Assembly (NCBI GenBank): GCA_002862785.1
Contig: PKDZ01000055.1
Coordinates: forward strand, 1-39,873
DNA length: 39,873 nt
From: Flavobacteriales bacterium
Lineage (GTDB): Bacteria; Bacteroidota; Bacteroidia; Flavobacteriales_D; Sanyastnellaceae
Reading direction: 5' to 3'
Shown here: piece by piece, positions 8,028 through 31,783 of the stretch
Layout: each line of letters opens with the position of its first letter
How positions within the stretch are numbered: position 1 is the first letter of the stretch
The notes under the pieces: model-generated
The model's input: the letters and a program-made list of their open reading frames with translations, nothing else
The model's database searches: none
Told to the model about the DNA's origin: nothing
Program-made: the position numbers and the translations under genes

Positions 8028-10301
8028 TTAAAACTGATAGGTAAGGGCCACGTTGATGTGGCGCCCCGCCTGCGGATAGAAGAAATTCTCGCGCACCACG
8101 AAGTCCGGTCCTGCGCTGTACCCGTAGGTGTATCCGTTGGCGCTGTACTCGGCATCGAGCACGTTTTCCACCCACACGTCGAGGCGGGTCCGGTCGATCA
8201 CCTTGCCGTCCTTCACCGTCGGCAGGTGGAGGCTCGCCCGCAGCTGGGACACGGTGTAGGCCGGCAGCAGGGCCGTGCCTGTGTTGTCCATATACTGGTC
8301 GCTCACGTGCTGCGTCGCCCACTCGAGGTCGAAGGCCACACCGGACGGCGTCTTCGGACGCACCGCGTGCCACAGCAATTGACCGCCCCAGAGCAGGCGC
8401 GGGCTAAAGGCAATGTCCGTGTTGGTGTAGACCGTGGAGATTTCGTTGTACTCGTCGAAATTGGCCCCGTAGTCGTAGGACACCTCAGTGAATTCGTCAA
8501 TGGTGCTGCGGGACACCGTCGCCTGGGCGCCGAGCTCGAAGGCGTCTGAAATCTGCCAACCGAATTCCATCTCCACGCCCGTCCGGCTGCTCTTCGGCAC
8601 ATTCTGGCGGATGGCCGCCCCCACATCGTTGAGCGCGCCCGTCGGGATGAGCTGATCGGTGTACGCCATGTGGTACGCGGTCAGGCCCCACGCGTAGGTA
8701 TCGGTGTTGCGACGCCAGCCGAACTCGAAGTCGGTCAGGCGCTCGGCGCGATCCGCAAACCCGGCAGGGGCATCCACAAAGTCGTTGCGGCCCGGCTCTT
8801 TGTGCGCGATCGCCACCGAAGCAAACACGCGGTCCTCGTCGTTGAGGCGGTAGTCGAGGCCCACCTTGGGGTTCAGGAAGTCAAACGTGGCGCTGTCGCG
8901 CGGCACGTTGATCGCCACCTGGTCATTGTCCGTCCCCATCGTCTCGAAGCGGACGCCCCGGTACTGGAGCTCGGCCTGCGCCTGCAGGCGGCCGTCTTGC
9001 GAACGCTGAACGAACCGGGCAAACACATTGCGGTCCAGCTTCAAGCCGTCGCTGTCGTAGTAGGTGTAGTTCGGCGTGCCCGCGGTGGAGGCGTTCTCTG
9101 CCCAGATTACCCGGCCGAAGTGGTCGCCCTCGTAGCGGTTGGCGGCAGCGCCCAGTGTCAGGGCGGCGCGGTCCCAGCGGCGCTCCGCCCCGAGGACGGC
9201 ACCGTAGAAATCGTTGTCAAGCCAACGGCGGCGCACCAAATCGGTGGTCGTGACCGTGTCGTCGCCCACCACCACGTCGGGCAACAGGTAGTCGGCGAGG
9301 TCTTCGCCCCCTTTAAATTCTTCGAAGTAGCCCTCCCCGTGGGTGAAGTGGCCGGTGGCCGACAGACGCCAGTCTCCGAACTGGTGCTCGAGGTGAAGCT
9401 GCTGGTGGTCCTGGCCGTAGTTGTCGACCTGGTCTTCATAAGTGTAGTAATTGGCCTGACGACCAGAGTTCATGAGGTCGTCAATCTGCTGCTCAGAATA
9501 GCCGTTGTTTTGGCCCCACGTGCGAATCTCGTCTTCGGTGCCGATCAATGCCACCTCCGGGACGCCCCACCAGCTCTGGTAGGTGCGCTCGCGGCCGCTC
9601 AGAATCGTGTAGGTCATGGAGCCGCCGTCCCAGACGCGGTTCAGACCGAGCTGGAAGCTGTTGAGGTCGCTCGAGGCGCGGTCGACCCAGCCGTCGCTCA
9701 TGACGGTGCTGACCCGGCCCTCGGCCGCCCAGCCGCTTGCACTGCGACCGCTGTTCCATTGGAGGTTGGTGCGGAAGGTGTTGAAGCTGCCTCCGCCGAC
9801 CATCATCGATCCGCCGGCCTCCTCGGCGATGTCGAGGGTGTTCAGGGAAATGGTCGCCCCGAAGGCGCCAGCTCCCAGCGTGGACGTGCCGACGCCGCGC
9901 TGCACCTGGATGTCATCGGTGGCGCTGGCGAGGTCGGGCATGTTGACCCAGAAGACCGCCTGCGACTCGCTGTCGTTGATCGGAATGCCGTTGAGGGTGA
10001 CGTTGATGCGCGTCGGGTCCGTACCGCGGATGCGCAGGCCGGTGTAGCCCACGCCGGCACCGGCGTCGGAGGTGACGACCACCGACGGCGTGTACCGCAG
10101 GACGTAAGGCAAGTCCTGACCGGTGTTGCGGTCGGCGATTTCCTCCGCGTCGAGGGTCTCGGCGGCGAAGGGCGCGCGCTCGGTGGCGCGGACGGCGGTC
10201 ACGGCGGCTGGCTCGAGGAAGCGGCTCAGCGTGTCGGACGGGGTTTGACCGAGGCCGATCAGCGGCAGGGTCAAAGCAAACAGGAAAAAGGTTTTGCGCA
10301 T
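8028..10301 (-). CDS. TonB-dependent outer-membrane receptor, probably for thiamine or a precursor
   Basis: A 757-residue receptor that would import a ligand across the outer membrane using TonB energy. It has a signal peptide (MRKTFFLFALTLPLIGLGQ), a plug domain (about residues 50-160) with LRIRGTDPTRINVTLNGIPIND and the usual IQVQRGVGTSTLGAGAFG segment, then a beta-barrel of many short amphipathic strands ending in the terminal aromatic signature VALTYQF. There is no N-terminal carboxypeptidase-like domain, and no SusD partner follows, so it is not a glycan-type receptor. The substrate call rests on the TPP riboswitch directly upstream, a pairing known in Bacteroidota for outer-membrane thiamine transport. 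It converges on the GGGP synthase gene 19 bases away. Confidence 0.93.
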   Translation of the reverse strand: MRKTFFLFALTLPLIGLGQTPSDTLSRFLEPAAVTAVRATERAPFAAETLDAEEIADRNTGQDLPYVLRYTPSVVVTSDAGAGVGYTGLRIRGTDPTRINVTLNGIPINDSESQAVFWVNMPDLASATDDIQVQRGVGTSTLGAGAFGATISLNTLDIAEEAGGSMMVGGGSFNTFRTNLQWNSGRSASGWAAEGRVSTVMSDGWVDRASSDLNSFQLGLNRVWDGGSMTYTILSGRERTYQSWWGVPEVALIGTEDEIRTWGQNNGYSEQQIDDLMNSGRQANYYTYEDQVDNYGQDHQQLHLEHQFGDWRLSATGHFTHGEGYFEEFKGGEDLADYLLPDVVVGDDTVTTTDLVRRRWLDNDFYGAVLGAERRWDRAALTLGAAANRYEGDHFGRVIWAENASTAGTPNYTYYDSDGLKLDRNVFARFVQRSQDGRLQAQAELQYRGVRFETMGTDNDQVAINVPRDSATFDFLNPKVGLDYRLNDEDRVFASVAIAHKEPGRNDFVDAPAGFADRAERLTDFEFGWRRNTDTYAWGLTAYHMAYTDQLIPTGALNDVGAAIRQNVPKSSRTGVEMEFGWQISDAFELGAQATVSRSTIDEFTEVSYDYGANFDEYNEISTVYTNTDIAFSPRLLWGGQLLWHAVRPKTPSGVAFDLEWATQHVSDQYMDNTGTALLPAYTVSQLRASLHLPTVKDGKVIDRTRLDVWVENVLDAEYSANGYTYGYSAGPDFVVRENFFYPQAGRHINVALTYQF

Positions 10302-10344
10302 GGCGTTTCAGTTGTGGCCACGCAGGAACCCGATGAACGGATCC

Positions 10345-10360
10345 CACCGCTCGTGCGGTG
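10345..10360 (-). promoter_or_regulatory. Hairpin just downstream of the TPP riboswitch, candidate expression platform
   Basis: The minus strand reads CACCGC, loop ACGA, GCGGTG: a perfect six-pair stem with a four-base loop. Its first two bases are also the last two bases of the GAGACA strand that could close P1 of the riboswitch. No U-run follows, so a plain intrinsic terminator is unlikely; control of ribosome access or a Rho-linked effect is possible. Confidence 0.4.
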
Positions 10361-10440
10361 TCTCGCTTCCTTCCCGGCATGACCCGGACAGGTTCGGAGG
10401 GTATGATCTCAGCCTCTCGGCACCCCTGCGTACGGAGACA
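10359..10440 (-). promoter_or_regulatory. TPP (THI-box) riboswitch
   Basis: On the minus strand the conserved THI-box blocks appear in order: GGGGTGCC, GGCTGAGATCATACCC (the pyrimidine-sensing arm), GAACCTG, and CCGGGTCATGCCGGGAAGG (the pyrophosphate-sensing arm). GGGGT pairs with ACCC as P2. Outer strands TGTCTC and GAGACA could close P1, though the first may lie upstream of the transcription start. It sits 57 bases before the ATG of the TonB-dependent receptor. Binding of thiamine pyrophosphate should lower receptor expression. Confidence 0.92.
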
Positions 10441-10446
10441 AAACTA
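10439..10446 (-). promoter_or_regulatory. Bacteroidota -7 element for the TPP-regulated receptor
   Basis: The minus strand reads TAGTTTTG, a full match to TAnnTTTG. The start of transcription would fall near 10433, at or just inside the 5' edge of the riboswitch, so the aptamer would begin almost at the first base of the RNA. Confidence 0.6.
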
Positions 10447-10502
10447 ATCAAGCCGTCCATATGTTCGCCGCGACCTGACCCCAGCCCCGGCCGGACCGGA
10501 TT

Positions 10503-10510
10503 TACCTTTG
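10503..10510 (+). promoter_or_regulatory. Bacteroidota -7 element for cysQ
   Basis: TACCTTTG, a full match to TAnnTTTG, ends only four bases before the cysQ ATG at 10515. Transcription should begin at or within a base or two of the start codon, so the mRNA would be leaderless. Confidence 0.6.
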
Positions 10511-10514
10511 TGAC

Positions 10515-11339
10515 ATGGCCCTCGCCCCGAAGCCGGAAACGCCACTCGACCTCCAGTCGGTCCTCGACCACGCCCTCGGCGTGGTGCGCCTCGCTGCGGC
10601 CGAGTTGGCGCAACTGTCCCACACTGAACTCGAAGTGGAATACAAGAGCGACGGCTCCCCGGTCACCAACGCCGACCAAGCCAGCCACCGCATCCTCGCC
10701 GACGGCCTCGCCCCCTTGGGCATCCCCGTCGTGAGCGAAGAAGGCGGCCGAACCCCCCACGCCGAGCGCCAGACCTGGTCGCGAATGTGGCTCGTCGATC
10801 CGCTCGACGGCACGGGGTCCTTCATCCGCATGCGCTCCGGCTACGCGATCAACGTGGCCCTCATCGAAAGCGATGGCCACGATTGGCACCCCATCCTCGG
10901 CATCGTCGCCCTCCCGGACCTCGACCGCGTCTACTTCGGTGGTTGCGGCATCGGCACCTGGAAGGCGCGCATCGACGACGCGGCCCGGCCGCCCCGGGCC
11001 ATCAGCGCCGATGAGGACGTCACCCCGCCGTACAGCCTGCTGATCAGCTGGAACGAACCCGGCACGCTCAACGACCTCGTGGCCGGCACCGTCGACCCCA
11101 CACAGGTCCGCATGCGGCCCGCCAGCGGGGCAGCCAAGTTCTGCCTCGTCGCCGAAGGCAAGGCCGACCTGCACGCCCGCTCCACGGGCTACTTCGAATG
11201 GGACTGCGCCGCCGGCGACGCCCTCTTCCGGTCCCAAGGCCTTGCCGTCTGCGACATCGTCACGGGCCGCCCGTTGACCTACAACGGCCCCACCCTTCGG
11301 GTCGGCGGCCTCATCGCCTCGCGCCTCCCGCCAGACTGA
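10515..11339 (+). CDS. cysQ: 3'(2'),5'-bisphosphate nucleotidase, inositol monophosphatase family
   Basis: CysQ removes the 3'-phosphate from adenosine 3',5'-bisphosphate (PAP), a by-product of sulfate assimilation and carrier-protein modification. The 274-residue protein has all the lithium-sensitive phosphatase motifs: KSDGSPVTNAD (residues 44-54), SEEG (74-77), the metal-binding DPLDGT (95-100), and EWDCAAGDAL (228-237). Related enzymes act on inositol or fructose-1,6-bisphosphate, but the SPVTNAD and EWD forms favour CysQ. It is cytoplasmic. The nearest neighbours are unrelated in function: a divergent thiamine receptor, and rsgA converging with only two bases between stop codons. No other sulfate genes are in the window. 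Confidence 0.88.
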   Translation: MALAPKPETPLDLQSVLDHALGVVRLAAAELAQLSHTELEVEYKSDGSPVTNADQASHRILADGLAPLGIPVVSEEGGRTPHAERQTWSRMWLVDPLDGTGSFIRMRSGYAINVALIESDGHDWHPILGIVALPDLDRVYFGGCGIGTWKARIDDAARPPRAISADEDVTPPYSLLISWNEPGTLNDLVAGTVDPTQVRMRPASGAAKFCLVAEGKADLHARSTGYFEWDCAAGDALFRSQGLAVCDIVTGRPLTYNGPTLRVGGLIASRLPPD

Positions 11340-11341
11340 AC

Positions 11342-12340
11342 TCAAATGCCCTGGTTGCCCCGTTTCCCGCCGGCGCGGTAGGGTCCTTCGTCGAACTCCT
11401 CGACCATGTTGCGGTAGTTCCGGTAGCGCTCGTCGTCCACTTCACCAGTCTCCAGCGCCGCCCGAACGGCACAGCCCGGTTCGTCGAGGTGGCGGCAGTT
11501 GTGGAATTTGCAGTCCGGCAGCAGGCGGAACATTTCCGGGAAGTGGTGGTGCAGCGTCTCCTTCTCCATCCGGACGAGGCCGAAGCCCTTGATGCCCGGC
11601 GTGTCGATGATGAAGCCACCGTCCTCGCCCGGCAGCGGGAACATCTCGGCAAACGTCGTCGTGTGCTTGCCTTTGTCGTGGACGTCGGACACCTCGGCCG
11701 TCTTCTGTTCGAGCCCGGGAATCAGGGCGTTGAGCAGCGTCGATTTGCCCACCCCGCTGTGGCCGCTCACCAAGTGAATCCCGCCCTTCATGCGTTCCCG
11801 CACCTCCTCCAGGCCGATGCCCTCAGTCGCCGAAATCGGAAGGCATTCGTAGCCCGCCTCGCTGTACATCGTCATCCATGATGCGAGCAGCTCCTCGGCC
11901 TCCTCGCCGAGCTGGAGCAGCACTTCGACCTTGTTGAACAGCAGCGTCGTCGGCACACCGTAGGCCTCGGCCGTCACGAGGAAGCGGTCCACGAATCCAC
12001 TGCTGGTCGCGGGCTCCACGAGGGTCACCACGAGCCAGGCGCGGTCGAGGTTGGCCGCCACCACGTGCGCCTCGTGGCTGAGGTTCACGCTCCGGCGGAT
12101 GATGCGGTTGCGGCGCGGGGCGATTTCAGTGATGACCCCTGTACCGTCCTCCTCCTCGGTCCACGTCACGTGGTCGCCGACGGCGATCGGGTTGGTCGTC
12201 CGGAGCCCTTCCATCCGGAACTTCCCGCGGAGACGGCACTCTACACGCCGGCCATCGGGGGCCTGGACGTCCGCCCATTTGCCCGTCGACCGAAACACTG
12301 TGCCTTCGTGTCGTTCCTCCATGGCCGCAAGTTCGCCCAT
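11342..12340 (-). CDS. rsgA: Ribosome small-subunit maturation GTPase RsgA
   Basis: RsgA (YjeQ) checks late 30S subunit assembly and leaves after GTP hydrolysis. The 332-residue protein has an N-terminal OB-fold (GTVFRSTGKW to about residue 80), a circularly permuted GTPase domain with NKVE (G4, 136-139) before the P-loop GHSGVGKST (193-201) and DTPG (G3, 246-249), and a zinc knuckle with Cys277, Cys282, His284 and Cys290. The start is ambiguous: several in-frame ATGs exist at 12364, 12346, 12340 and 12322. I chose 12340 because AGGTAGGA lies just upstream; 12322 would start right at the OB-fold. The divergent ABC gene starts only about 22 bases away. Confidence 0.95.
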   Translation of the reverse strand: MGELAAMEERHEGTVFRSTGKWADVQAPDGRRVECRLRGKFRMEGLRTTNPIAVGDHVTWTEEEDGTGVITEIAPRRNRIIRRSVNLSHEAHVVAANLDRAWLVVTLVEPATSSGFVDRFLVTAEAYGVPTTLLFNKVEVLLQLGEEAEELLASWMTMYSEAGYECLPISATEGIGLEEVRERMKGGIHLVSGHSGVGKSTLLNALIPGLEQKTAEVSDVHDKGKHTTTFAEMFPLPGEDGGFIIDTPGIKGFGLVRMEKETLHHHFPEMFRLLPDCKFHNCRHLDEPGCAVRAALETGEVDDERYRNYRNMVEEFDEGPYRAGGKRGNQGI

Positions 12341-12362
12341 CCGCATCCTACCTTGCGCATCC

Positions 12363-13070
12363 ATGCTGTTGGAGGTTCACGACGTCACCAAGCGCTACGG
12401 TCCGCAAAAGGCCCTCGATGGGGTCTCCGTCTCCGTCCCCAAGGGACAGGTCGTCGGGCTCCTCGGGCCCAATGGCGCAGGCAAATCCACCCTCATGAAG
12501 TCCATCCTCGGCTACCTGCCGACCGATGGCGGGACCATCGCCTTCGACGGGACGGAGGTCCGCGACGGCGGCGATGCGATGCGCCGCCGGATGGGCTACC
12601 TGCCCGAGCACAACCCGCTCTATCCTGAGATGTACGTCCGGGAGTTCCTCGACTTCATTGCCGGGCTGCACGGCATCAAGAGCAAGGCCGCCCGCGACGC
12701 CAAGGTGGAGGAGACCATTAAGCGGGTGGGCCTATCGCCCGAAGCGCACAAACCGATCTCCGCCCTCTCCAAGGGCTACAAGCAGCGCGTCGGCCTCGCC
12801 CAGGCCATCCTGCACGACCCGGAGCTGCTCATCCTTGACGAGCCCACCTCCGGCCTCGACCCGCTGCAGCTCAAGGAAATCCGAAACCTCATCAAATCCT
12901 TCGGGGAATCCCGCACGGTCATCCTCTCCACACACATCCTGCAAGAGGTCGAGGCCATGTGCGACCGGGTGGTCATCATCAAGCAGGGCCGCATCGTGGA
13001 GGACGCCCCCCTCGGGGATCTCATCGCCCGCGGCGGTCTGGAACAGGCTTTCGACGCCCTCGCCGGCTGA
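12363..13070 (+). CDS. ABC transporter ATP-binding protein, GldA-like
   Basis: A 235-residue ABC ATPase with Walker A GPNGAGKST (35-43), a Q-loop region followed by MGYLPEHNPLYPEMYVRE, signature LSKGYKQR (135-142), Walker B LLILDEPTSGLDP (155-167) and the switch His in STHILQEVEA. The YLPEHNPLYPEMYVREFL stretch and LSKGYKQRVGLAQA closely resemble GldA, the ATPase of the GldA-GldF-GldG exporter linked to gliding motility, and related multidrug-type ATPases. It is about 60 residues shorter than typical GldA because the C-terminal extension is missing. No permease gene (gldF/gldG) is adjacent, so the partner must be elsewhere. A weak -7-like TACCTTGC (4 of 6 positions) sits six bases before the ATG. 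Confidence 0.88.
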   Translation: MLLEVHDVTKRYGPQKALDGVSVSVPKGQVVGLLGPNGAGKSTLMKSILGYLPTDGGTIAFDGTEVRDGGDAMRRRMGYLPEHNPLYPEMYVREFLDFIAGLHGIKSKAARDAKVEETIKRVGLSPEAHKPISALSKGYKQRVGLAQAILHDPELLILDEPTSGLDPLQLKEIRNLIKSFGESRTVILSTHILQEVEAMCDRVVIIKQGRIVEDAPLGDLIARGGLEQAFDALAG

Positions 13071-13076
13071 GCGCAA

Positions 13077-13106
13077 AGCGGCCCGCCCCCGAGGGAGCAG
13101 GCCGCT
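13077..13106. terminator. Possible bidirectional terminator between convergent genes
   Basis: AGCGGCC and GGCCGCT form a seven-pair GC stem around a 16-base loop that itself holds CCC/GGG. On the minus strand it is followed by a short TTTG, on the plus strand by no T run. It lies between the convergent GldA-like and acidic-protein genes, the right place for a shared terminator, but the U tract is weak. Confidence 0.4.
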
Positions 13107-13132
13107 GCTGAAATCATTGCAGAGCTTCAGGC

Positions 13133-14902
13133 TCAGTGCCGGACCAGCACGCGGCTGCGCATCACGCCCTCGGCGGTCCGCACCTCGAGCACGTAGGCTC
13201 CGGTGGACCAGGCATGGCACGGAACCTCTATGGTCTGGAGCCCATTGGACACCCAACGGCCGACCCAACGACCGTCCATCGTCCGCACCACGGCGGATTC
13301 GATGCCGGCTTCCGCCCGGATGCGGAAGGCATCCGCCGCCGGATTCGGGTGCACGTCCAGGGTCAGGTCCTGCTCGACCACGGCATTGATCGTCTGGCCG
13401 GGGAACAGAATGTTGAGCACCAGCTGCTGGCGCACCAGACCGTCCATGTCGATCATCAACGTGTCGCAGTGCGTCGCAGTGCACTCCAGGAAGTTGCCAA
13501 CCATCTGGGTGACGGTCAGGCAGACCTCGTAGTTGCCAACCTCTTCGTAGATGTGGGTCGGATTCGGCTCGTCGGACTCGTTGCCGTCGCCGAAGCTCCA
13601 GAAGTAGTACGTGTCAGCCTCCGGCTCGTCCACGTAGGCGACAATGTTATACGGCAGGGGCACCCCATCCTCGTCGAGGGCCTGTTCGAACTCAAACTCC
13701 ACCTCGCACTCGTCCTCGTCGTCCTCTTCCTCTTCGTCGTCATCCTCATCCTCCTCGTCCCAGAGATCCTCCAGCTCTTCGAGGAGCATCTCGAGCTCTT
13801 CGCATGCCTCCTCATTTCCATCGGCGCACGCCTCGATCAGTTCGAGAATGCCGCAGGCCATGTCCGGGTCGATGCCAAGGTCGTTGGGCACGTTGGAGCC
13901 ACAGATTTCCTCGAGCCATTCGATCAGGGCCTCCAGGTCCTCCTCATCGAACTCACCATCGTCCTCTCCCTCCTCGTCATCGTCGTTCTCTTCGTCATCG
14001 TCCTCTCCTTCCTCATCGTCGTCCTCTTCGTCATCGTCCTCTCCTTCCTCATCGTCGTTCTCTTCGTCATCGTCCTCTCCTTCCTCATCGTCGTTCTCTT
14101 CGTCATCGTCCTCTCCTTCCTCATCGTCGTCCTCTTCGTCATCGTCCTCTCCTTCTTCATCGTCCCAGAGATCTTCGAGGAGCATCTCGAGCTCCTCACA
14201 GGCGGCCTCTTCGCCATCCGCGCAGGCCTCAATGAGTTCAAGGGCAGCACAGGCCATCTCCACCTCGATGTCCCCTTCGAGGGTGTCGTTGGATGAACAG
14301 ATCTCCTCGAGCCAATCCATCAAATCGAGCCAATCCTCCTCATCGAGGTCGTCGTCACCGTCATCCTCACCTTCCTCGTCCTCCTCATCATCCTCTTCTT
14401 CGTCATCCTCTTCGTCATCTTCCTCTTCTTCCTCTTCTTCCTCGTCGTCCCAGAGGTTTCCGAATTCGTCCCACAGCGCTTCGAGCTCGGCACAGGCTTC
14501 CTCGCTGCCGTTGTCACAGGCCTCGATGAGGGCGAGCGCCTCGCAGGCCAACTCGACATCGACATCCACTTCGAGAGTGTCGTTGGATGCACAGATCTCC
14601 TCGAGCCAATCGATCAAATCGGCCCAGTCCTCGCCTTCGACCTCATCGTTTTCCTCGTCCCCGCCGCAGTCGTCGAGGTACTCGGAATTCGACACCCAGA
14701 CAAAACTGAACGCCGAGGGAATGCAGGTGAAGTTTTCACACGGATCATCTGACACCACGAGCTCCTCATAGGGGCCGTAGATGTTGCCCGCATCGTCCTC
14801 GCAGCCGTTCTGGGCGGCCAGGGAGAAGCACAGGGCAAACAAGAAGCTGAAGGAAGCAACGTGCTTCCAGAGAGCAGTGGGCTGGGTGGAGGTCAAACGC
14901 AT
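13133..14902 (-). CDS. Secreted acidic protein with three Cys-patterned modules, PKD domain and type IX sorting domain
   Basis: I do not recognise a named family. The 589-residue protein has a signal peptide (about 1-31, ending SLAAQ), a short Cys-containing N-terminal part, and three modules at about residues 91-152, 189-247 and 320-382. Each begins with D/E-rich text and a helix of the form DLIDWLEEIC and continues with ACxxLxLIEAC and EEACxELE. Cysteines lie at 104/120/129/137, 202/218/227/235 and 334/350/359/367, with identical spacing (16, 9, 8). Linkers are almost pure Asp/Glu, including five 12-residue tandem repeats (about 248-307). A PKD-like domain follows (about 400-485; FWSFGDG, HIYEEVGNYEVCLTV), then a type IX C-terminal sorting domain (about 515-589; LDVHPNPAADAF). 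It is presumably exported by the GldKLMN system and held at the surface or released. Cation binding or adhesion is inference. ATG 14902 gives a good signal peptide. Confidence 0.85.
   Translation of the reverse strand: MRLTSTQPTALWKHVASFSFLFALCFSLAAQNGCEDDAGNIYGPYEELVVSDDPCENFTCIPSAFSFVWVSNSEYLDDCGGDEENDEVEGEDWADLIDWLEEICASNDTLEVDVDVELACEALALIEACDNGSEEACAELEALWDEFGNLWDDEEEEEEEEDDEEDDEEEDDEEDEEGEDDGDDDLDEEDWLDLMDWLEEICSSNDTLEGDIEVEMACAALELIEACADGEEAACEELEMLLEDLWDDEEGEDDDEEDDDEEGEDDDEENDDEEGEDDDEENDDEEGEDDDEEDDDEEGEDDDEENDDDEEGEDDGEFDEEDLEALIEWLEEICGSNVPNDLGIDPDMACGILELIEACADGNEEACEELEMLLEELEDLWDEEDEDDDEEEEDDEDECEVEFEFEQALDEDGVPLPYNIVAYVDEPEADTYYFWSFGDGNESDEPNPTHIYEEVGNYEVCLTVTQMVGNFLECTATHCDTLMIDMDGLVRQQLVLNILFPGQTINAVVEQDLTLDVHPNPAADAFRIRAEAGIESAVVRTMDGRWVGRWVSNGLQTIEVPCHAWSTGAYVLEVRTAEGVMRSRVLVRH
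13981..14160 (-). repeat. Five tandem copies of a 36-base repeat inside the acidic protein gene
   Basis: Five consecutive 36-base units (13981, 14017, 14053, 14089, 14125) differ at only a few positions, such as gtt/gtc in the second codon-sized block. Each encodes a 12-residue acidic unit of the type DDEEGEDDDEEN. As the unit is a multiple of three, copy-number change would alter linker length without shifting frame. Confidence 0.92.
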
Positions 14903-14909
14903 GGTTCTG

Positions 14910-14917
14910 CAAATTTC
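14910..14917 (-). promoter_or_regulatory. Possible -7 element for the acidic secreted protein
   Basis: The minus strand reads GAAATTTG, matching five of six defined positions of TAnnTTTG, seven bases before the ATG at 14902. If used, the transcript would be nearly leaderless. The 149-base gap up to groEL otherwise holds only the groEL terminator and nothing else I can recognise. Confidence 0.35.
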
Positions 14918-14987
14918 GGCGAAACCGATGAAACGGTCCCGCCCTTGACAAACTCGCGGACGGCCCGAGAGGTTGTCGCCGGGCACG

Positions 14988-15010
14988 AAAAAGCCCCGCC
15001 GAAGCGAGGC
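14988..15010 (-). terminator. Rho-independent terminator of groEL
   Basis: On the minus strand GCCTCGC, loop TTCG, GCGGGGC (one G-U pair) is followed by TTTTT. It begins about 40 bases after the groEL stop codon and ends the groES-groEL transcript before the acidic-protein gene. Confidence 0.85.
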
Positions 15011-15051
15011 CTTTCCTGTTGTTGTGTGGGGTGTGAACCGCAGGGAAGCGA

Positions 15052-16716
<1,665 letters not shown>

Positions 16717-16725
16717 TCAATGAAA

Positions 16726-17001
16726 TCAGAGCACGGCGAGAATGTCGCTCTCACGCATGATCATGTAGTCCTTGTCCTCGAGCGTGAGCTCGGTTCCGGA
16801 ATACTTGCCATAGAGCACGGTGTCCCCGACCGTGACGGTCATGGGCTCATCGGGCTTGCCGGCGCCGACGGCGACCACGGTGCCGCGCTGCGGCTTCTCC
16901 TTGGCAGTGTCGGGGATGATGATGCCGCTGGCGGTCTTCTCCTCCGCGGCGGCGGGCTCGACCACGACGCGGTCGGCCAGGGGCTTAATGTTGACGGACA
17001 T
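16726..17001 (-). CDS. groES: Co-chaperonin GroES
   Basis: The heptameric lid of GroEL. The 91-residue protein starts [16 protein letters not shown] and contains the mobile loop [19 protein letters not shown] that docks on GroEL, then GTVVAVGAG and the conserved end [26 protein letters not shown]. The upstream extension of the frame into 17169 is rejected because it runs through the secG terminator and adds sequence no GroES has. The 180-base gap to secG holds the secG terminator, a palindrome and promoter-like elements; I see no CIRCE element. Confidence 0.99.
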
Positions 17002-17045
17002 GATATGTTGGGTTGTGATGTCTTTGCCTTGGGCGCTCTGTCCAG

Positions 17046-17061
17046 AACCAATCCCGTGCCA
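17046..17061 (-). promoter_or_regulatory. Sigma-54-like promoter candidate upstream of groES
   Basis: The minus strand reads TGGCACGGGATTGGTT. The -24 part TGGCACG is a perfect match to the sigma-54 consensus and the spacing is right, but the -12 part reads TGGTT where TTGCW is expected, so the key GC is GT. It would start transcription about 35 bases before the groES ATG. Confidence 0.25.
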
Positions 17062-17094
17062 GTCCTTCCGGCAACGGAAATCCCTGCCAATTCC

Positions 17095-17116
17095 GTCAGG
17101 TGACCTGACAAAATGA
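17095..17116 (-). promoter_or_regulatory. Palindrome next to a -7-like element upstream of groES
   Basis: 17095-17109 is GTCAGGT-G-ACCTGAC, a perfect seven-base inverted repeat with one central base. On the minus strand it directly follows TCATTTTG (17109-17116), which matches five of six defined positions of the Bacteroidota -7 element. The palindrome would therefore cover the start of transcription, a typical place for a repressor operator. Confidence 0.45.
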
Positions 17117-17128
17117 GGCCCGGGGCGC

Positions 17129-17160
17129 AAAAAAATGTCAGCCGTGACAGGCTGACATTT
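17129..17160 (-). terminator. Rho-independent terminator of secG
   Basis: On the minus strand AAATGTCAGCC, loop TGTCAC, GGCTGACATTT forms a perfect eleven-pair stem running into a T tract. It lies 21 bases after the secG stop and separates the secG group from groESL. The plus strand also shows A/T flanks, so it could work in both directions. Confidence 0.88.
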
Positions 17161-17181
17161 CGGATGCATTCGACTCGCGGC

Positions 17182-17487
17182 TCACTGCGCCGGGGAGGCC
17201 GGGACCTCGGTCGCGACCGGCGGAACGAACTCGTCCTCGGAAAAGCCATTGTCAGCTCCCGTGCCAGCGGAGAACGCGCCAGTGGCGGCGATGCACAGCA
17301 CGAAGAGGGCGGCGGTCAAGTACCAAGTGGCCTTCTCGAGGAAGTCCGTGGTGCGCTGGACGCCACCAATCTTGCCGGCGGACTCGAAGCCAGCAGCGAG
17401 ACCGGTGCCCTTCGGGTTCTGGACGAGGATGACAGCTCCAAGCAGGATGGAGATAATCAGAATAAGGACGAGGAGAACGTAGCCCAT
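17182..17487 (-). CDS. secG: Preprotein translocase subunit SecG
   Basis: SecG is the small helper subunit of the SecYEG channel in the inner membrane. The 101-residue protein has two membrane helices (about 3-22 and 56-75) joined by the family loop VQNPKGTGLAAGFESAGKIGGV, where the NPKG.GLA core is diagnostic. The C-terminal tail is acidic, then Pro/Ala-rich, as often in Bacteroidota. It follows the TPR-like gene by 57 bases; this gap has a weak GCCCG/CGGGC hairpin just after that gene's stop, without a U run in the direction of transcription. Confidence 0.94.
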   Translation of the reverse strand: MGYVLLVLILIISILLGAVILVQNPKGTGLAAGFESAGKIGGVQRTTDFLEKATWYLTAALFVLCIAATGAFSAGTGADNGFSEDEFVPPVATEVPASPAQ

Positions 17488-17544
17488 GGTGTCGTGTGTT
17501 GATCCCTTCTAATCGGCCCGGAAGCGCCCGTCATTTGCGGGCTT

Positions 17545-18618
17545 TTAGTCGTCTTCCGACTTGCGTCCAAGCGTTTTGGATTGGGCGGCAAAATAAACGC
17601 TTTTCTCCGGGTATTTCAAGGCCAGCAGTTTGTAGGCGCGGCGGGCGCGGCCCAACTGCCCCTGTGCGGCGTAGATGCGCGCCATCGTTTCGGTGATGAG
17701 CGAGGTGTCCTCCACCAGGCTCTCCTTGGCCAACTCCTTGATGGATGGGCGCTCCACCTCGGGCTGGATTGGGCTGATGACGGGCTCGTTGCGGATGAAC
17801 AAATCAATGAGCGCGGCCTGCTGCTCCAGACGGCCTTCGGACTCCTCCCCCGTCGGAACCGCATCGCTGGACAGCACCTCCTCAACATGCCCAGCCGCTT
17901 GCTCCACCCGCAGGGCGGGGGTGCCGGCGATGGCGGACTCCGCAAAACCGGTCTGCCGGGAGCGCTCATAGGCCCACCGCGCCAAAGGCGACAGGTTGGC
18001 CACATCCACGCCAGAGTCCTCCGTATTCGGCTCGGCCGCTGTCGGTGCTTCCTCTGGTTCCGGGTCAGGCGCATCGGCCGCCCGAACGGCTTCGATCTCC
18101 TGTTCGATGCTGCGCTCAATCGCACCGAGCACCACCTCGCGGGCCAACGACCCTTCGGGCGGCACCTCGACCTCGACGCGCTCCTCCGCTTCTTCGGCCT
18201 CCTCCGCTTCCGCACTGGGCTCCTGCCCCTCGGAATCCGGCTTCGGCTCGACTGGCTCGGGGGTCCAACGGAGGCGCAATTCTTCCTCGAGCTCCGGCTC
18301 CAGCGCCTCTACGGCCCGAGCAAACGTGGCTATCTCGGATTCGATGCCCGCCCGGAACAACAGGTCGAACAGGCGGCCCGGCACCGAAGCGAACACCGCG
18401 GCCTCCACCAAGTGGTCGGCCGCCTTCATGTGGCGCCCGTCCCGGGAAGCCTTGGCCCGCAGGAGCCGGCCAGCCCCGAACGCCGGGTAAGCCTCCACCC
18501 ACTCGCCCAACGTGGAAGACCACGAGGACCAGCGCTCGGCGTCAAACGCCTGCGTATCGCCGCGCACCTCGCTCAGGAGGGCGTCAATCGGATCGGATAG
18601 AGAATTGGACTCGGCCAT
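17545..18618 (-). CDS. TPR-like protein with a long acidic, Pro-rich linker
   Basis: A 357-residue protein of unknown function. The N-terminal ~110 residues look helical and TPR-like (AYPAFGAGRLLRAKASRD, HLVEAAVFAS). The middle (about 115-210) is low-complexity and rich in Glu, Pro and Ala, and the C-terminal ~55 residues hold a clear TPR motif (TMARIYAAQGQLGRARRAYK, LKYPEKSVYFAAQ). I see no signal peptide or membrane helix, so it is probably cytoplasmic, perhaps a scaffold. A TPR protein at this place between lptE and secG is, as far as I recall, common in Bacteroidota. ATG 18618 is preferred over a TTG four codons upstream. The gap to lptE is 25 bases. Confidence 0.7.
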   Translation of the reverse strand: MAESNSLSDPIDALLSEVRGDTQAFDAERWSSWSSTLGEWVEAYPAFGAGRLLRAKASRDGRHMKAADHLVEAAVFASVPGRLFDLLFRAGIESEIATFARAVEALEPELEEELRLRWTPEPVEPKPDSEGQEPSAEAEEAEEAEERVEVEVPPEGSLAREVVLGAIERSIEQEIEAVRAADAPDPEPEEAPTAAEPNTEDSGVDVANLSPLARWAYERSRQTGFAESAIAGTPALRVEQAAGHVEEVLSSDAVPTGEESEGRLEQQAALIDLFIRNEPVISPIQPEVERPSIKELAKESLVEDTSLITETMARIYAAQGQLGRARRAYKLLALKYPEKSVYFAAQSKTLGRKSEDD

Positions 18619-26922: not shown

Positions 26923-28290
26923 ATGAGAAACGCTGCGATCATCGCCTTGTGCGCCATCACGCTGGCCAGCTGCTACGGCGGCCCTGCCGGAGAGGTGGTT
27001 GGCGTGTACCCGCGGGAGGACTGGGTGCAAGTAAATCCCTATGGGATGAACTACATCCACTACGGCTCCTACACGATGGGCCCGAGCGACCAGGACGTGC
27101 CCTACGCCCTGACGTCCCGCTCCAAGACGGTCACCATCCCCGCCTTTTACATCGACATCCACGAGATCTCGAACAACGAGTACCGCCAGTTCGTCTACTG
27201 GGTCCGGGACAGCCTGTTCCGCGACGTGCTCCAAGAGAACGATTTCGAGGAGTACTTCCGCACGGAGGACGCCAGCGGACGGGAACTCGACCGCTTCGTA
27301 AACAAGGGATACGTCCTCAATTGGGATGAGCCCATCGATTGGCAGAACGAGGACATCTTCGACGCCCTCTATGATGAGTTCTACTTCCAAGGCTCCGACC
27401 GGTTCTACGACGCCAAGCAGATTGACACCCGGAAGCTGAACTTCAAGTACTTCTGGACCAACCTGCAAGCCGCGGCCCAAAAAGGGGGACTCGATTACGA
27501 AATCAACGAGCCCAACCAGCTCGGACAGCTGAACAGCATCCGGGGACACAGCGACCGCGCCCAGTTCGTGGTCGAGGAAAACACCAACGTCTACCCGGAC
27601 ACCCTCTGCTGGATTCGCGACTTCACCTACGGCTTCAACGAGCCGCTGACGGAGACCTATTTCTGGCACCCCGCCTACGACGATTACCCTGTGGTCGGTG
27701 TGACCTGGGGACAAGCACGAGCCTTCAACGCTTGGAGAACCCAACTCCTGGCCACGTGGAAGCGCGAGAACGACGAGACCATGGTCCAAAAGTTCCGCTT
27801 GCCCAGCGAAGCCGAATGGGAATTCGCTGCCCGCGGAGGCCTCGACCTGGCTCCGTTCCCATGGGGCGGTCCCTACATCCGAAACATCTACGGTTGCCCG
27901 TTGGCCAACTTCAAGCCGATGCGCGGTGACTACGTGGAAGACGCCGGTTGCCACACCGTGCCCATCGAGAGCTACAGCCCGAACGATTACGGACTGTACC
28001 AGATGTCCGGAAATGTTGCCGAGTGGACGAACACAGCCTTCGACGAGACCGTGTATGACTTCAGCCATGACATGAGCCCCGAGTACGAATACAATGCCAA
28101 GGCGGACGATCCCCCCAGCCTGAAGCGCAAAGTGATTCGCGGTGGCAGCTGGAAGGACATCGGATACTACTGCCAGACCGGCACGCGTTCCTTCGAGTAC
28201 CAAGACACGGCCAAATCGTACATCGGATTCCGCAGCGCCATGAGCTACCTCGGCCGCGGCAAGAATGTGGATCCGGAAGACTTCAATTAA
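26923..28290 (+). CDS. gldK: Type IX secretion lipoprotein GldK (PorK)
   Basis: GldK and GldN form the large periplasmic ring attached to the outer membrane. The 455-residue protein has a lipoprotein signal with lipobox LASC (Cys17), so it is lipid-anchored. A formylglycine-generating-enzyme-like fold follows, with ISNNEYRQFVYWVRD, VVGVTWGQARAFNAWR, RLPSEAEWEFAARGG, YQMSGNVAEWT and VIRGGSWKD, ending near IGFRSAM. In this family the fold is structural, without known catalysis. Genes gldL, gldM and gldN follow in the conserved order. Confidence 0.96.
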   Translation: MRNAAIIALCAITLASCYGGPAGEVVGVYPREDWVQVNPYGMNYIHYGSYTMGPSDQDVPYALTSRSKTVTIPAFYIDIHEISNNEYRQFVYWVRDSLFRDVLQENDFEEYFRTEDASGRELDRFVNKGYVLNWDEPIDWQNEDIFDALYDEFYFQGSDRFYDAKQIDTRKLNFKYFWTNLQAAAQKGGLDYEINEPNQLGQLNSIRGHSDRAQFVVEENTNVYPDTLCWIRDFTYGFNEPLTETYFWHPAYDDYPVVGVTWGQARAFNAWRTQLLATWKRENDETMVQKFRLPSEAEWEFAARGGLDLAPFPWGGPYIRNIYGCPLANFKPMRGDYVEDAGCHTVPIESYSPNDYGLYQMSGNVAEWTNTAFDETVYDFSHDMSPEYEYNAKADDPPSLKRKVIRGGSWKDIGYYCQTGTRSFEYQDTAKSYIGFRSAMSYLGRGKNVDPEDFN

Positions 28291-28368
28291 TCCCCAACCC
28301 TACCCGGTCTCCCCCATCACCAGCGCATGAAACCCGCCGGGGGTGAATCACCAGAACCTGCAAGCACT

Positions 28369-29178
28369 ATGGCAAAGAACAAGAAGAGCCCCACAGTCGG
28401 AGGCAAGAAGAAGAAGCCGTTCAACGAGAGCAAAGCCTGGAAATCAGGCATGGCCAAACTCTACGGCATCGGAGCCTCGATTGTGATCATCGGCGCCCTG
28501 TTCAAGATTGAGCACTGGGAAGGCGCCTCCGAGATGCTCATCATCGGACTCGGCACCGAGGCCTTCATCTTCTTGATGTCCGCGTTCGAGAAGCCGCACG
28601 CGGATCCGAAGTGGGAACTCGTCTACCCGGAGCTGGCCGTCGAGGACGGTGAGGCTGCGCCCAAAAAGCCGGTCGACCAGCTGGACGACATGCTCAAGGA
28701 CGCCGGTGTCGACAACGCGGTTCTCTCCCGATTGGGAGACGGCATGCGCCACCTTGGGGATCAGGCCATGCAGCTCAGCGAGGTGACGGACGCCGCCGCT
28801 GCCACCAGTGAGTACGGAGGTGCCCTCCGCTCCGCCACGGAAAAGGTGAACGGTTTGACCGATACCTACGCGCAGGTCAGCGAATCCCTCACGGGCCTGT
28901 CCGACAACAAGGACATGAGCCTTGCCGCCGGTGAGCAGCTCCAAAAAATGAACGAGAACCTCGGCAGCCTCAACGGCATGTACGAGGCCCAACTCCAGCA
29001 GATGGAGACAAGCCGCCAGCTCTTCTCCGGCATGGGTGAACTGATCCAGAACCTCAACGACAGCGTCGAGGACACCAAGAAATACAAGGACAACATCGCC
29101 GCGCTCTCCAGCAATCTGGAAGCCCTCAACACGGTGTATTCCAACATGCTCAACGCCATGGGCAACTCCCGCGGCTGA
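28369..29178 (+). CDS. gldL: Type IX secretion motor subunit GldL (PorL)
   Basis: GldL forms the five-subunit inner-membrane ring around two GldM helices and converts proton flow into motion. The 269-residue protein has a Lys-rich N-terminus, two membrane helices (about 31-47 and 53-73) and a long helical cytoplasmic part. The membrane Glu in FKIEHWEG (Glu48) matches the residue essential for proton use in the Flavobacterium protein. I chose ATG 28369 (MAKNKK); an in-frame ATG 14 codons upstream is less like the family. The gap to gldM is 29 bases. Confidence 0.96.
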   Translation: MAKNKKSPTVGGKKKKPFNESKAWKSGMAKLYGIGASIVIIGALFKIEHWEGASEMLIIGLGTEAFIFLMSAFEKPHADPKWELVYPELAVEDGEAAPKKPVDQLDDMLKDAGVDNAVLSRLGDGMRHLGDQAMQLSEVTDAAAATSEYGGALRSATEKVNGLTDTYAQVSESLTGLSDNKDMSLAAGEQLQKMNENLGSLNGMYEAQLQQMETSRQLFSGMGELIQNLNDSVEDTKKYKDNIAALSSNLEALNTVYSNMLNAMGNSRG

Positions 29179-29207
29179 TTATCCTCCTCTCCCACACGCA
29201 CTAGATC

Positions 29208-30923
29208 ATGGCAGGAGCGAAGGAAACACCGCGTCAGAAGATGATCGGGATGATGTACCTCGTCCTGACGGCCCTTCTGGCACTGAACATCTCGAAGGAA
29301 ATCCTTAACGGATTTGTCAAGGTGGAAAACGGTCTGCGCAAGACCGACCAGACCGTCCAGGGCAAGTCCCGGGAAACCATGCTGGAATTCGAGGCCAAAT
29401 ACCTCCAGGACCAGCAGAAAGTGAAGCCGTATTACGATGCCGCCAAAGACATCGAAAAGAAGGCCGACGACCTCTACGACCACATCACCCAGCTGAAGGC
29501 CAACATCATGGCCGTCGCCAGTGGCGATCGGGAAGTGGTGGACGCCGGCGGGGACCTGTCCAAGTACATCGCTCAGGACAAAATCACCCGCCGAGACACC
29601 GTCCTCAGCATCCAGTATTTAGAAAAGAAGGACGAGTACCAGGAAATCACGGCTTACCTCGTGGGCAGTGAACCTGGAAGCCCCAAAGACGGACCGTTCA
29701 CAGCCAGCGAACTGAAGAGCAAACTAGAAGGCTTCCGGGATGAGCTCAAGAACGTTAGGTTCACCGACTTCGTGGGCAATGAATTTGCCGTCTCACCCGG
29801 CCTCAAGGCCTCCTTCGACAAAACGTTTGTCTACAAACGGGAAATGGAGGATGGCAAGGAGGTGCTCTGGGAAGCCGCCAACTTCTTCGACGTTCCGATT
29901 GCCGCTGTGATTCCGATCCTCTCTAAGCTGCAGATCGACGTCGAAAACGCGAAGTCCAACCTCATGTCCGAGCTCATCGCCGGCATCGAGGGCAAGAGCT
30001 ACAAGTTCACAAACCTGATGCCGCTCGTCGTGCCGGAAAGCAACTACATACTCCGTGGTGACAGCTTCCGCGCCAGCGTGTTGCTCGCGGCCTTCGACGC
30101 CACGAACAGTCCAGACATCTACGTTGATGACCGTGCCTTCGACGGTCGAGATTCCACCAACCTAGAATACGACGGCATGGATCCGCTCCGCATCGACGGT
30201 GGCCTCGGCCAGCTCCGCATCTCTACCAAGGGCATGCCCCTCGGCGAGCGGAACTACAAGGGCCTCATCCGTTTCCAAGGACCGGATGGCAATGTGGGAG
30301 ACTACCCCTTCTACACGCCGGAGTTTACCGTGGCCGAGCCCGCCCTCGTGGTGAGCCCGACCAAGATGAACGTGTTCTACCGTGGCGTACCAAACCCCGT
30401 GGAGATCTCCGTTCCAGGTGTCAGCAGCGACAAGCTCGACGTCCGGATCACCGGAGGCCACCGCATTAAGCCTGACGGAGAGACGTTCATCGTCGATCCA
30501 GGTGCCGGTGAGAGCGCCGAAATCGTGGTGACGGCTACGTTGCCCGACGGCAGCAAGAAGAGCCTGCCCGGCCGTGAGTTCCGCGTCAAGAGGATTCCCG
30601 ACCCCTCTCCGCGTTTCGCCGGAAAGAAGCCGTCCGACAAGACCATCACCAAGGTCCTCCTCGAGAATGCTCCCTCAGTGGGTGCCCTCATGGAGAACTT
30701 CGACTTCGACGTGGAGGTCAAGGTGAAGCGGTTCAACGTGACCGTCACCAAGGGCGGCACCTTCGTCGAGCAAAGCAGCAACTCCAACATGGTGACGTCC
30801 AACATGAAGGAACTCTTCCGTTCCATCGGACGGGGCTCCGTCGTGTACATTGAGGACATCGTCGTCTCCATGCCCGATGGCACGGAGCGCGCGTTGCCCA
30901 CCATGAAACTCAAAGTGATCTGA
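29208..30923 (+). CDS. gldM: Type IX secretion motor subunit GldM (PorM)
   Basis: GldM is the rotor-like stalk: one membrane helix inside the GldL ring and four periplasmic domains reaching the GldK-GldN ring. The 571-residue protein starts MAGAKETPRQKMIGMMYLVL, with the conserved short basic N-terminus (Arg9) and single helix (about 12-30), then a helical domain (about 35-230) and several beta-rich domains up to the end. The length is slightly above the roughly 510-520 common in the family, with no obvious inserted domain. The stop overlaps the gldN start (TGATGATG). Confidence 0.96.
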   Translation: MAGAKETPRQKMIGMMYLVLTALLALNISKEILNGFVKVENGLRKTDQTVQGKSRETMLEFEAKYLQDQQKVKPYYDAAKDIEKKADDLYDHITQLKANIMAVASGDREVVDAGGDLSKYIAQDKITRRDTVLSIQYLEKKDEYQEITAYLVGSEPGSPKDGPFTASELKSKLEGFRDELKNVRFTDFVGNEFAVSPGLKASFDKTFVYKREMEDGKEVLWEAANFFDVPIAAVIPILSKLQIDVENAKSNLMSELIAGIEGKSYKFTNLMPLVVPESNYILRGDSFRASVLLAAFDATNSPDIYVDDRAFDGRDSTNLEYDGMDPLRIDGGLGQLRISTKGMPLGERNYKGLIRFQGPDGNVGDYPFYTPEFTVAEPALVVSPTKMNVFYRGVPNPVEISVPGVSSDKLDVRITGGHRIKPDGETFIVDPGAGESAEIVVTATLPDGSKKSLPGREFRVKRIPDPSPRFAGKKPSDKTITKVLLENAPSVGALMENFDFDVEVKVKRFNVTVTKGGTFVEQSSNSNMVTSNMKELFRSIGRGSVVYIEDIVVSMPDGTERALPTMKLKVI

Positions 30924-31783
30924 TGATGAAAGCAGCACGCCATCTCGTGACCCTCCTCTGCGTTCTCGCCGTGGCCCTCTCGGCCGAGGCCCAGACGCAA
31001 ACCGTCCTCGACGGTGCCTACGTGAAGGAAACCAACCTCACGAAGCGGGTCGTCCCCTACCCCTCCCTGCGTGAGGCGGACGTGATGTACGTGCGCCGCA
31101 TCTGGCAGGACATCGACCTGCGCCAGAAGATCAACCAGATGTTCTACTTCCCGGTCGATCCGATCGAGGACCGGAAGAACCTCTTCGATGTGATCCGCTA
31201 CGCCCTCGAGGTGGAAGGCTCTCTGACTGCCTACGGCACGGGACCGGCCGGTGACGATGACGAGTTCCGCTACCCCTACACGGGCACCCAGGTGGACTCC
31301 GTTCTCAATCCGGTGGTGATCATTCCGCAGTTCGACCCCGTGACCGGCGAGGTCATCGGTTCCATGGAGGCCCAGACTTCGATCAACAGCCAGGACATCG
31401 TCCGCTACCGAATCAAAGAGGACTGGGTGTGGGACCGCCAACGCAGCCAGCGCCATGTCCGCATCATCGGCATTGCCCCCATCATCGAGAAGAAGGACGA
31501 CGAAGGCAACTCACAGGGCCTCGCCCCGCTGTTCTGGCTCTACTACCCTGAGTGCCGCTACGTCTTCGCCAACGCGGAGTGCTACAACTACGAGAACGAC
31601 GCCCAGCGCCGCACCTTCGAAGAAATCTTCCAGAAGCGCTACTTCTCGAGCTACATCGTGAAGGAGACCAACGTCTTCGACCGCTCGATCGCCGATTACG
31701 CGCAAGGCCTCGACGCCCTCCTCGAATCGGAGCGCATCAAGGACGAGCTCTTCACCATCGAGCACGACCTCTGGCACTACTGA
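30923..31783 (+). CDS. gldN: Type IX secretion protein GldN (PorN)
   Basis: GldN binds GldK in the periplasmic ring of the type IX machine. The 286-residue protein (285 if the second ATG is used) has a signal peptide ending SAEAQ. The family body follows: READVMYVRRIWQDIDLRQK near residue 50, IKEDWVWDRQRSQRHVRIIGIAPI, LFWLYYPECRYVFANAECYN and the terminal ERIKDELFTIEHDLWHY. It ends the porP-gldKLMN group and is followed within 24 bases by a strong terminator. Confidence 0.95.
   Translation: MMKAARHLVTLLCVLAVALSAEAQTQTVLDGAYVKETNLTKRVVPYPSLREADVMYVRRIWQDIDLRQKINQMFYFPVDPIEDRKNLFDVIRYALEVEGSLTAYGTGPAGDDDEFRYPYTGTQVDSVLNPVVIIPQFDPVTGEVIGSMEAQTSINSQDIVRYRIKEDWVWDRQRSQRHVRIIGIAPIIEKKDDEGNSQGLAPLFWLYYPECRYVFANAECYNYENDAQRRTFEEIFQKRYFSSYIVKETNVFDRSIADYAQGLDALLESERIKDELFTIEHDLWHY

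Follow-up and report, generated by a model that had tools for sequence, protein, structure and literature searches.

Translation of the 589-aa open reading frame at positions 13133–14902 (minus strand) confirmed that it encodes a protein with the same four-cysteine module three times. The module is a real, undescribed domain restricted to one lineage, and the protein that bears it is otherwise of a familiar kind. The frame lies within the stretch of 39,873 nucleotides analyzed here (the window), and its features are collected in Table 1. From the N-terminus, the protein consists of a signal-like start, an N-terminal four-cysteine domain, three units of module plus Asp/Glu linker, a PKD domain and a sorting-tail match. 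Residues 31–589 contain 98 Asp, 127 Glu, 10 Arg and no Lys; both basic residues are absent over residues 31–490, the first Arg is residue 491, and no Lys occurs from residue 31 onward. The Asp/Glu linkers and the PKD domain that an earlier note on this DNA had described were confirmed. Linker 2 contains an in-frame tandem repeat of 36 bp (12 residues; 5.7 copies with 95% matches), and the array spans positions 13957–14164, thus beginning inside the end of module 2. The GC content is 0.56–0.59 over positions 13500–14999, compared with 0.60–0.69 in the rest of 10000–17999, as expected of GAN codons. After residue 30 there are 21 cysteines, an odd number; the odd one is C562, located in the tail and not kept in the orthologue from genome G005.

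Table 1. Features of the module gene and of other parts of the window, with the basis of each assignment.
Feature	Positions	Strand	Basis
Signal-peptide-like region, residues 1–30, ending ...LCFSLAAQ	14813..14902	(-)	translation by eye; model helix 8–31; no dedicated predictor score
N-terminal four-cysteine domain, residues 31–80	14663..14812	(-)	alignment of six sequences
Module 1 (C104, C120, C129, C137)	14450..14620	(-)	full-length model helices 90–105, 116–130, 134–151
Acidic linker 1	14327..14449	(-)	translation; pLDDT under 50 over residues 153–185
Module 2 (C202, C218, C227, C235)	14156..14326	(-)	full-length model helices 188–202, 214–228, 232–247
Acidic linker 2 with tandem repeat	13931..14155	(-)	pLDDT under 50 over residues 248–317
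Module 3 (C334, C350, C359, C367)	13760..13930	(-)	full-length model helices 320–334, 346–360, 364–381
Acidic linker 3	13709..13759	(-)	translation; pLDDT under 50 over residues 382–397
PKD domain region with four cysteines (C399, C461, C474, C479)	13448..13708	(-)	PF18911 over residues 414–469
Type IX C-terminal sorting domain, type A-like, residues 517–589	13136..13354	(-)	PF18962 and TIGR04183, both below cut-off
Terminator-like hairpin between groEL and the module gene	14993..15005	(-)	1 found; shuffles average 1.0, weak alone
gldK-like (FGE-sulfatase), gldM and gldN genes	26923..31783	(+)	profile scans; same window as the probable cargo gene

The spacing C-x15-C-x8-C-x7-C is exact in all three modules, as had been claimed, and 25 columns are invariant among them. 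With module 1 as the query, module 2 was recovered at E 9.7e-18 and module 3 at E 3.3e-13, so the repetition is not due to chance. The spacing had also been taken to be invariant; it is identical only in the window gene and three genus-level orthologues, and family-wide the first gap ranges from 8 to 15 residues and the third cysteine is missing in 8 of 42 modules. The four orthologues have 2 or 3 modules each. In a DNA tree of ten modules support was weak (25–60), except for one split at 98, which separates the window protein's middle module from a group that holds the third-type modules and G009's middle module. Separate duplications are thereby suggested.

The domain that precedes the modules has the motif GCxDDxGNxYxPYExLxVSxDxCENFTC...C (also ...DCG) and is a second unannotated four-cysteine domain in the protein. 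It is better conserved among the orthologues than the modules are. Its best match to VWC2L_1st was at E 0.37, in 2 of 6 members; no significant profile match supported a VWC-like identity and no VWC chain was found among the PDB sequence matches, suggesting that the domain is at most faintly VWC-like.

No Pfam or NCBIfam family covered the module, either in the window protein (E up to 1) or in 10 relatives (E up to 0.1 for Pfam and 0.01 for NCBIfam). When 19 modules were compared singly with Pfam, only weak matches to three families were observed, under HMMER filters that discard most Pfam matches above about 0.1 even when matches are asked for at E up to 10. The RH1 family (PF09744) was matched by 5 of the 19 (best E 0.0023), which we read as a short helical chance match. 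A profile of the 19 modules retrieved one PDB chain, 1wy6 (E 0.048 over 15 residues), and a profile of 14 modules retrieved two, at 0.13 and 0.25; 1wy6 and 3ldz (the chain at 0.25) were rejected as relatives for the same reason. A Foldseek comparison with the PDB gave nothing at E 0.001 or better (best E 4.6), and a second fold comparison, among 28 chains, reached a VIA Z of 5.2 to a designed binder, a value that means little for helical bundles. These fold matches are credible for no relative, yet they give no evidence for a new fold, and the predicted structure is best called a three-helix bundle and nothing further. Neither such a module nor acidic type IX surface proteins appeared in the titles and abstract openings of the literature surveyed. 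The view that the module belongs to no described domain was borne out, there being no credible Pfam, NCBIfam or PDB match.

Within one Flavobacteriales family, 25 of the 114 genomes, that of the window included, contain modules; they fall in 5 of 21 genera. In a sample of the order, 27 of 399 genomes gave matches at E 0.01, two of which are L051 and L052, from another family; both (E about 1e-3) resemble a helix of another protein and lack C1 and C2, L052 has an internal stop, and they were rejected. In the class and phylum samples, which may overlap and in which the reach of the profile is limited, only the genome of the window was recovered (1 of 395 each). A scan of named contigs with the N-terminal domain gave seven matches, six of them to metagenome-assembled genomes of uncultured Flavobacteriales or Bacteroidetes. 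The seventh, from an archaeon (L059), was attributed to chance: the match covers 25 residues at E 6e-5, and no such cysteine domain occurs in the plus-strand ORFs listed for it that reach 100 aa or more. Weak matches at L011–L020 and L027 cover 22–32 of 57 positions, have VCASGDPADL-type or other (L016) spacing without the four-cysteine pattern, and were discarded; L030 and L031 were dropped on the extent and position of the match alone (also 22–32 of 57 positions). A scan of named contigs with the whole protein gave no match, with most search patterns falling in the acidic runs.

AlphaFold2 was applied to module 3 alone with 14 module sequences (window plus six named contigs), and it predicted three helices (3–17, 29–43 and 47–67; mean pLDDT 85.1, pTM 0.66), bearing out the claim of a folded helical module. 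The full-length model (7 sequences) is weak as a whole (mean pLDDT 57.2), but it has the same three helices in all three copies, with PKD and tail as beta structure and with the linkers and residues 1–91 under pLDDT 50. The linkers, which had been described as charged and extended, are accordingly predicted to be disordered. In the modelled positions C1 closes helix 1, C2 sits a turn inside helix 2, C3 is near the end of helix 2 and C4 falls in the first turn of helix 3. The geometry of an up-down-up bundle would then put the pair C1 and C2 at the end opposite to C3 and C4. These helix positions, together with the exchange of C3 for an upstream cysteine described below, point to putative C1–C2 and C3–C4 disulfides in each module. 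The earlier proposal that the module is pinned by disulfides would fit both the two-and-two placement and the exchange.

The PKD domain matched PF18911 at E 8.1e-13 and 48.7 bits (cut-off 27), and so belongs to this family; the best PDB sequence match for the PKD region was the collagenase ColH. The sorting tail scored below both curated cut-offs: 18 bits for PF18962 (E 0.0037, cut-off 27) and 17.7 bits for TIGR04183 (E 0.0026, cut-off 23), or 22.3 bits when scanned with the whole genome. The match nevertheless covers almost the whole model and lies at the C-terminus. The Pfam count covers 26 scanned module proteins and leaves out L037, which has masked letters, and L025, which a contig end truncates; both enter the cysteine count given below. 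Of the 26, 24 match both PKD and the sorting tail (the latter at E 0.016 or better), and 13 of the 24 pass the Pfam tail cut-off; the window protein and its three orthologues, whose Pfam tail scores are also too low, are not among them. Hence the sorting domain of the earlier note is retained as a sub-threshold match with stronger tails in relatives, and a constant association of modules with such a domain does not hold, since 2 of the 26 proteins have no match at all. The genome of the window encodes a type IX secretion system (T9SS), with SprA over its cut-off and 49 sorting-tail matches, 36 of them over the cut-off. The tail is made credible by these T9SS genes and by relatives whose tails, in the same position, score higher, and export of the window protein by the T9SS is probable on these sequence matches. 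By the rule for type A tails, which lead to covalent linkage to anionic LPS (PMC9143113), the protein would be attached to the surface. The protein shares with type A PKD cargo of Bacteroidota the signal-like start, the PKD domain, the tail (a sub-threshold match here) and the T9SS genes in the genome. It differs in having a cysteine module, polyacidic linkers and a cysteine domain at the N-terminus, none of which credibly matches a Pfam or NCBIfam family. The ORF at positions 28327–29178 sits where gldL would be expected.

We propose, with a confidence just short of an even chance, that the gene product is an exported, surface-attached and polyanionic spacer or adhesin, built of disulfide-clamped beads and responsive to cations. 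The accessory protein would leave through the T9SS and most likely stay on the cell surface. Each repeated unit would be a small three-helix domain that folds on its own and is held by two disulfide clamps, C1–C2 at the helix 1/helix 2 end and C3–C4 across the three-residue turn that joins helices 2 and 3. Disordered Asp/Glu linkers would space these rigid beads, the PKD domain and the N-terminal cysteine domain, and the chain would project from the cell as a bristle of high charge. The linkers may hold Ca2+ or Mg2+ loosely and in this way set reach and stickiness, and the beads may prevent collapse of the chain and offer sturdy contact points. Fold and architecture are well supported by the predictions; the function, with its cation binding and adhesion, we infer from composition and analogy, and the role of cations is plausible. 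If the proposal is right, a small disulfide-clamped helical domain would be added to bacterial extracellular modules, in uncultured Flavobacteriales, and a natural bead-and-string design would become available for testing how polyanionic linkers and divalent cations set surface reach and stickiness.

Condensed-charge stretches of disordered proteins are described as binding Ca2+ at about 100 uM, Asp better than Glu, and the window protein shares dense disordered Asp/Glu stretches with acidic calcium-binding proteins such as Starmaker (PMC8391695); it differs in being bacterial and in having acidic stretches that link predicted folded beads. One charged peptide free of hydrophobic residues is described in the same source as binding no calcium (PMC8391695), and the linkers of the window protein are nearly free of hydrophobic residues, which argues against cation binding. 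The two scanned proteins that lack PKD and tail matches, L010 (G044:C392) and L035 (G025:C18), come from one genus; they have 4–5 modules on acidic, Asp-rich linkers and end in loops that by eye are thrombospondin-3-like (DxDGDG) and EF-hand-like. Pfam gave no match for either at E 0.1 or better. Such loops would give a calcium-rich context, and they were counted in favor of the proposed function.

The modules might instead be beads that bind a protein, peptide or glycan ligand, with the acidic linkers serving as solubilizing spacers only. Such a role would account for modules that align well among orthologues while the linkers vary in length, and for the WLEE and LxLIxAC motifs that are kept within the genus, and designed three-helix binders, whose shape suits binding, are among the best fold matches. 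The kept residues, however, may reflect mere core packing, the fold matches are as weak as given above, and no known binding family was matched credibly. We consider a pure ligand-binding role unlikely.

The distribution of cysteines among relatives bears on how they pair. We counted 42 distinct modules from 27 ORFs, leaving aside L044/L073 (G010), in which the contig start cuts the module. The counting expression fixes the x8 and x7 gaps; its total matches the 42 profile domains (L051 and L052 excluded), and hence the 27 ORFs hold no module with different gaps that escaped the count. All four cysteines are kept in 34 of the 42 modules, with C1–C2 gaps of 8, 10, 11 or 15 residues. In the remaining eight, from six genomes, Ala or Gly stands at the place of C3, and all eight have a cysteine before helix 1, at 17 (five modules), 19 (one) or 26 (two) residues before C1. 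None of the 34 four-cysteine modules has a cysteine 15–20 residues before C1; 10 of them have one at 22–27 residues, and by inspection these belong to the preceding domain, as its last cysteine, or, in L035, to the signal-peptide region. The start of helix 1 should lie at the same end of the modelled bundle as C4, and an upstream cysteine there (C0) keeps the cysteine count at four. The likely partner of C4 is thus C3 where C3 is present and C0 where it is absent, and the coupling of a missing C3 with an upstream cysteine is as expected if C1–C2 and C3–C4 are disulfides. When the PKD-tail part of 21 of the 27 ORFs was used to build a tree, the modules without C3 required two changes on the best tree and 2–3 in bootstrap trees, suggesting that the exchange reflects few events rather than eight; these may be one or two, a single origin also being compatible. 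This tree omits L010, L025, L035, L037, L038 and L039, in which the PKD start was not matched by the expression, and it places the four window-type proteins on a very long branch, so that the kinship of their PKD-tail part is uncertain. In L048, L049 and L050 a repeated motif, WDCPNL..NIG..C......EDCEC, with weak SprB-repeat matches lies beside the C3-less modules.

A broader reading combines these elements: a new domain family, spread over five genera of one Flavobacteriales family, of disulfide-locked beads on polyanionic strings, forming a cation-tuned surface bristle whose reach is altered by in-frame slippage of repeats and whose clamp has been re-plumbed (C3–C4 versus C0–C4) with the fold unchanged. 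Taken with all its parts, this is tentative and somewhat unlikely.

The four cysteines could also be ligands of a metal (copper, zinc or iron) instead of pairing as disulfides, with the acidic chain gathering metal ions for them. The chain is indeed very acidic, and no match to VKOR, DsbB or Thioredoxin_4 was found at E 0.01 in the genome of the window (G000, 98.5% complete), although the same searches were positive in controls (3/14, 6/14 and 10/14, respectively); our survey of the literature on VKOR in Bacteroidetes returned nothing relevant. The failure to find these three thiol-oxidation families counts against the disulfide reading, as does the odd number of cysteines, and it poses the question of how a probably exported protein with 21 cysteines after its signal peptide is made in such a genome. 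By the helix limits of the model, however, the cysteines would lie two and two at opposite ends of the bundle rather than in a single cluster, the C3-less modules keep this two-and-two pattern through the cysteine at the start of helix 1, and the N-terminal domain and the PKD region also carry four cysteines each. Metal binding is therefore very improbable as the main role of these residues, and the disulfide clamp remains the preferred reading.

Exported helical repeats stabilized by cysteines exist, among them HcpB/HcpC (PMC3851747) and the CagY repeat region of Helicobacter pylori (PMC2581425). In HcpB/HcpC, as described, successive repeats are tied together by a disulfide that links the end of the first to the start of the second (PMC3851747), and the module may be a far relative of these disulfide-tethered Sel1-like repeats, a peptide-binding alpha/alpha repeat. 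The predicted cysteine pair across the three-residue turn of two antiparallel helices resembles that of the Helicobacter proteins (PMC3851747), but the module has no sequence match to them (no Sel1 Pfam match in the 19 modules and no Hcp PDB chain for the module profiles at E up to 10), carries an extra cysteine pair between helices 1 and 2, and would form single three-helix beads between linkers rather than a superhelix, so that we give this kinship little credence. CagY is described as an exported protein whose helical modules, arranged in tandem, have conserved cysteines and lie in a chain rich in charged residues; the DNA repeats that encode them are prone to in-frame change (PMC2581425). 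This likeness, drawn from descriptions, is a resemblance only, and the secretion system differs. To our knowledge, the CagY repeat region has no long acidic linkers.

In the window and in G005, G014 and G009 (where the contig is short), groEL and an ABC gene flank the module gene on either side; G005 and G014 also keep the wider surroundings (secG, groES, rsgA, an inositol-phosphatase-like gene and a TonB receptor). In G007 (L086), G012 (L087) and G004 (L089) groEL adjoins the ABC gene without a module gene; the contig of G010 stops too early to score presence. The gene is an accessory insertion and the groEL/ABC junction (positions 13070–15052 of the window) is a presence/absence site, with 4 genomes against 3 within one genus. 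Identity to G007 is 97.7% on the stretch that runs from the TonB gene to the ABC gene (5,063 aligned bases) and 88.5% on the groEL side (2,047 bases), a drop across the site that suggests recombination at the junction.

Values of dN/dS, obtained from four sequences with saturated-dS pairs left out, were 0.00–0.03 for the N-terminal domain (0 amino acid changes to G009 over 49 codons, at dS 1.06), 0.03–0.05 for PKD, 0.04–0.17 for the last module, 0.08–0.26 for the first module and 0.10–0.37 for the tail (G005 left out). The folded parts are under purifying selection. That the gene is a repeat-expanding accessory of little function, with acidic repeats growing by slippage, would fit the 36-bp tandem repeat, the patchy presence at the locus and the variable number of modules, but these low values, the open frames in the three orthologues compared and the spread of the module across five genera leave it scarcely probable. 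A hairpin similar to that in Table 1 follows groEL at the empty site in G007, and the module gene is perhaps a separate transcription unit.
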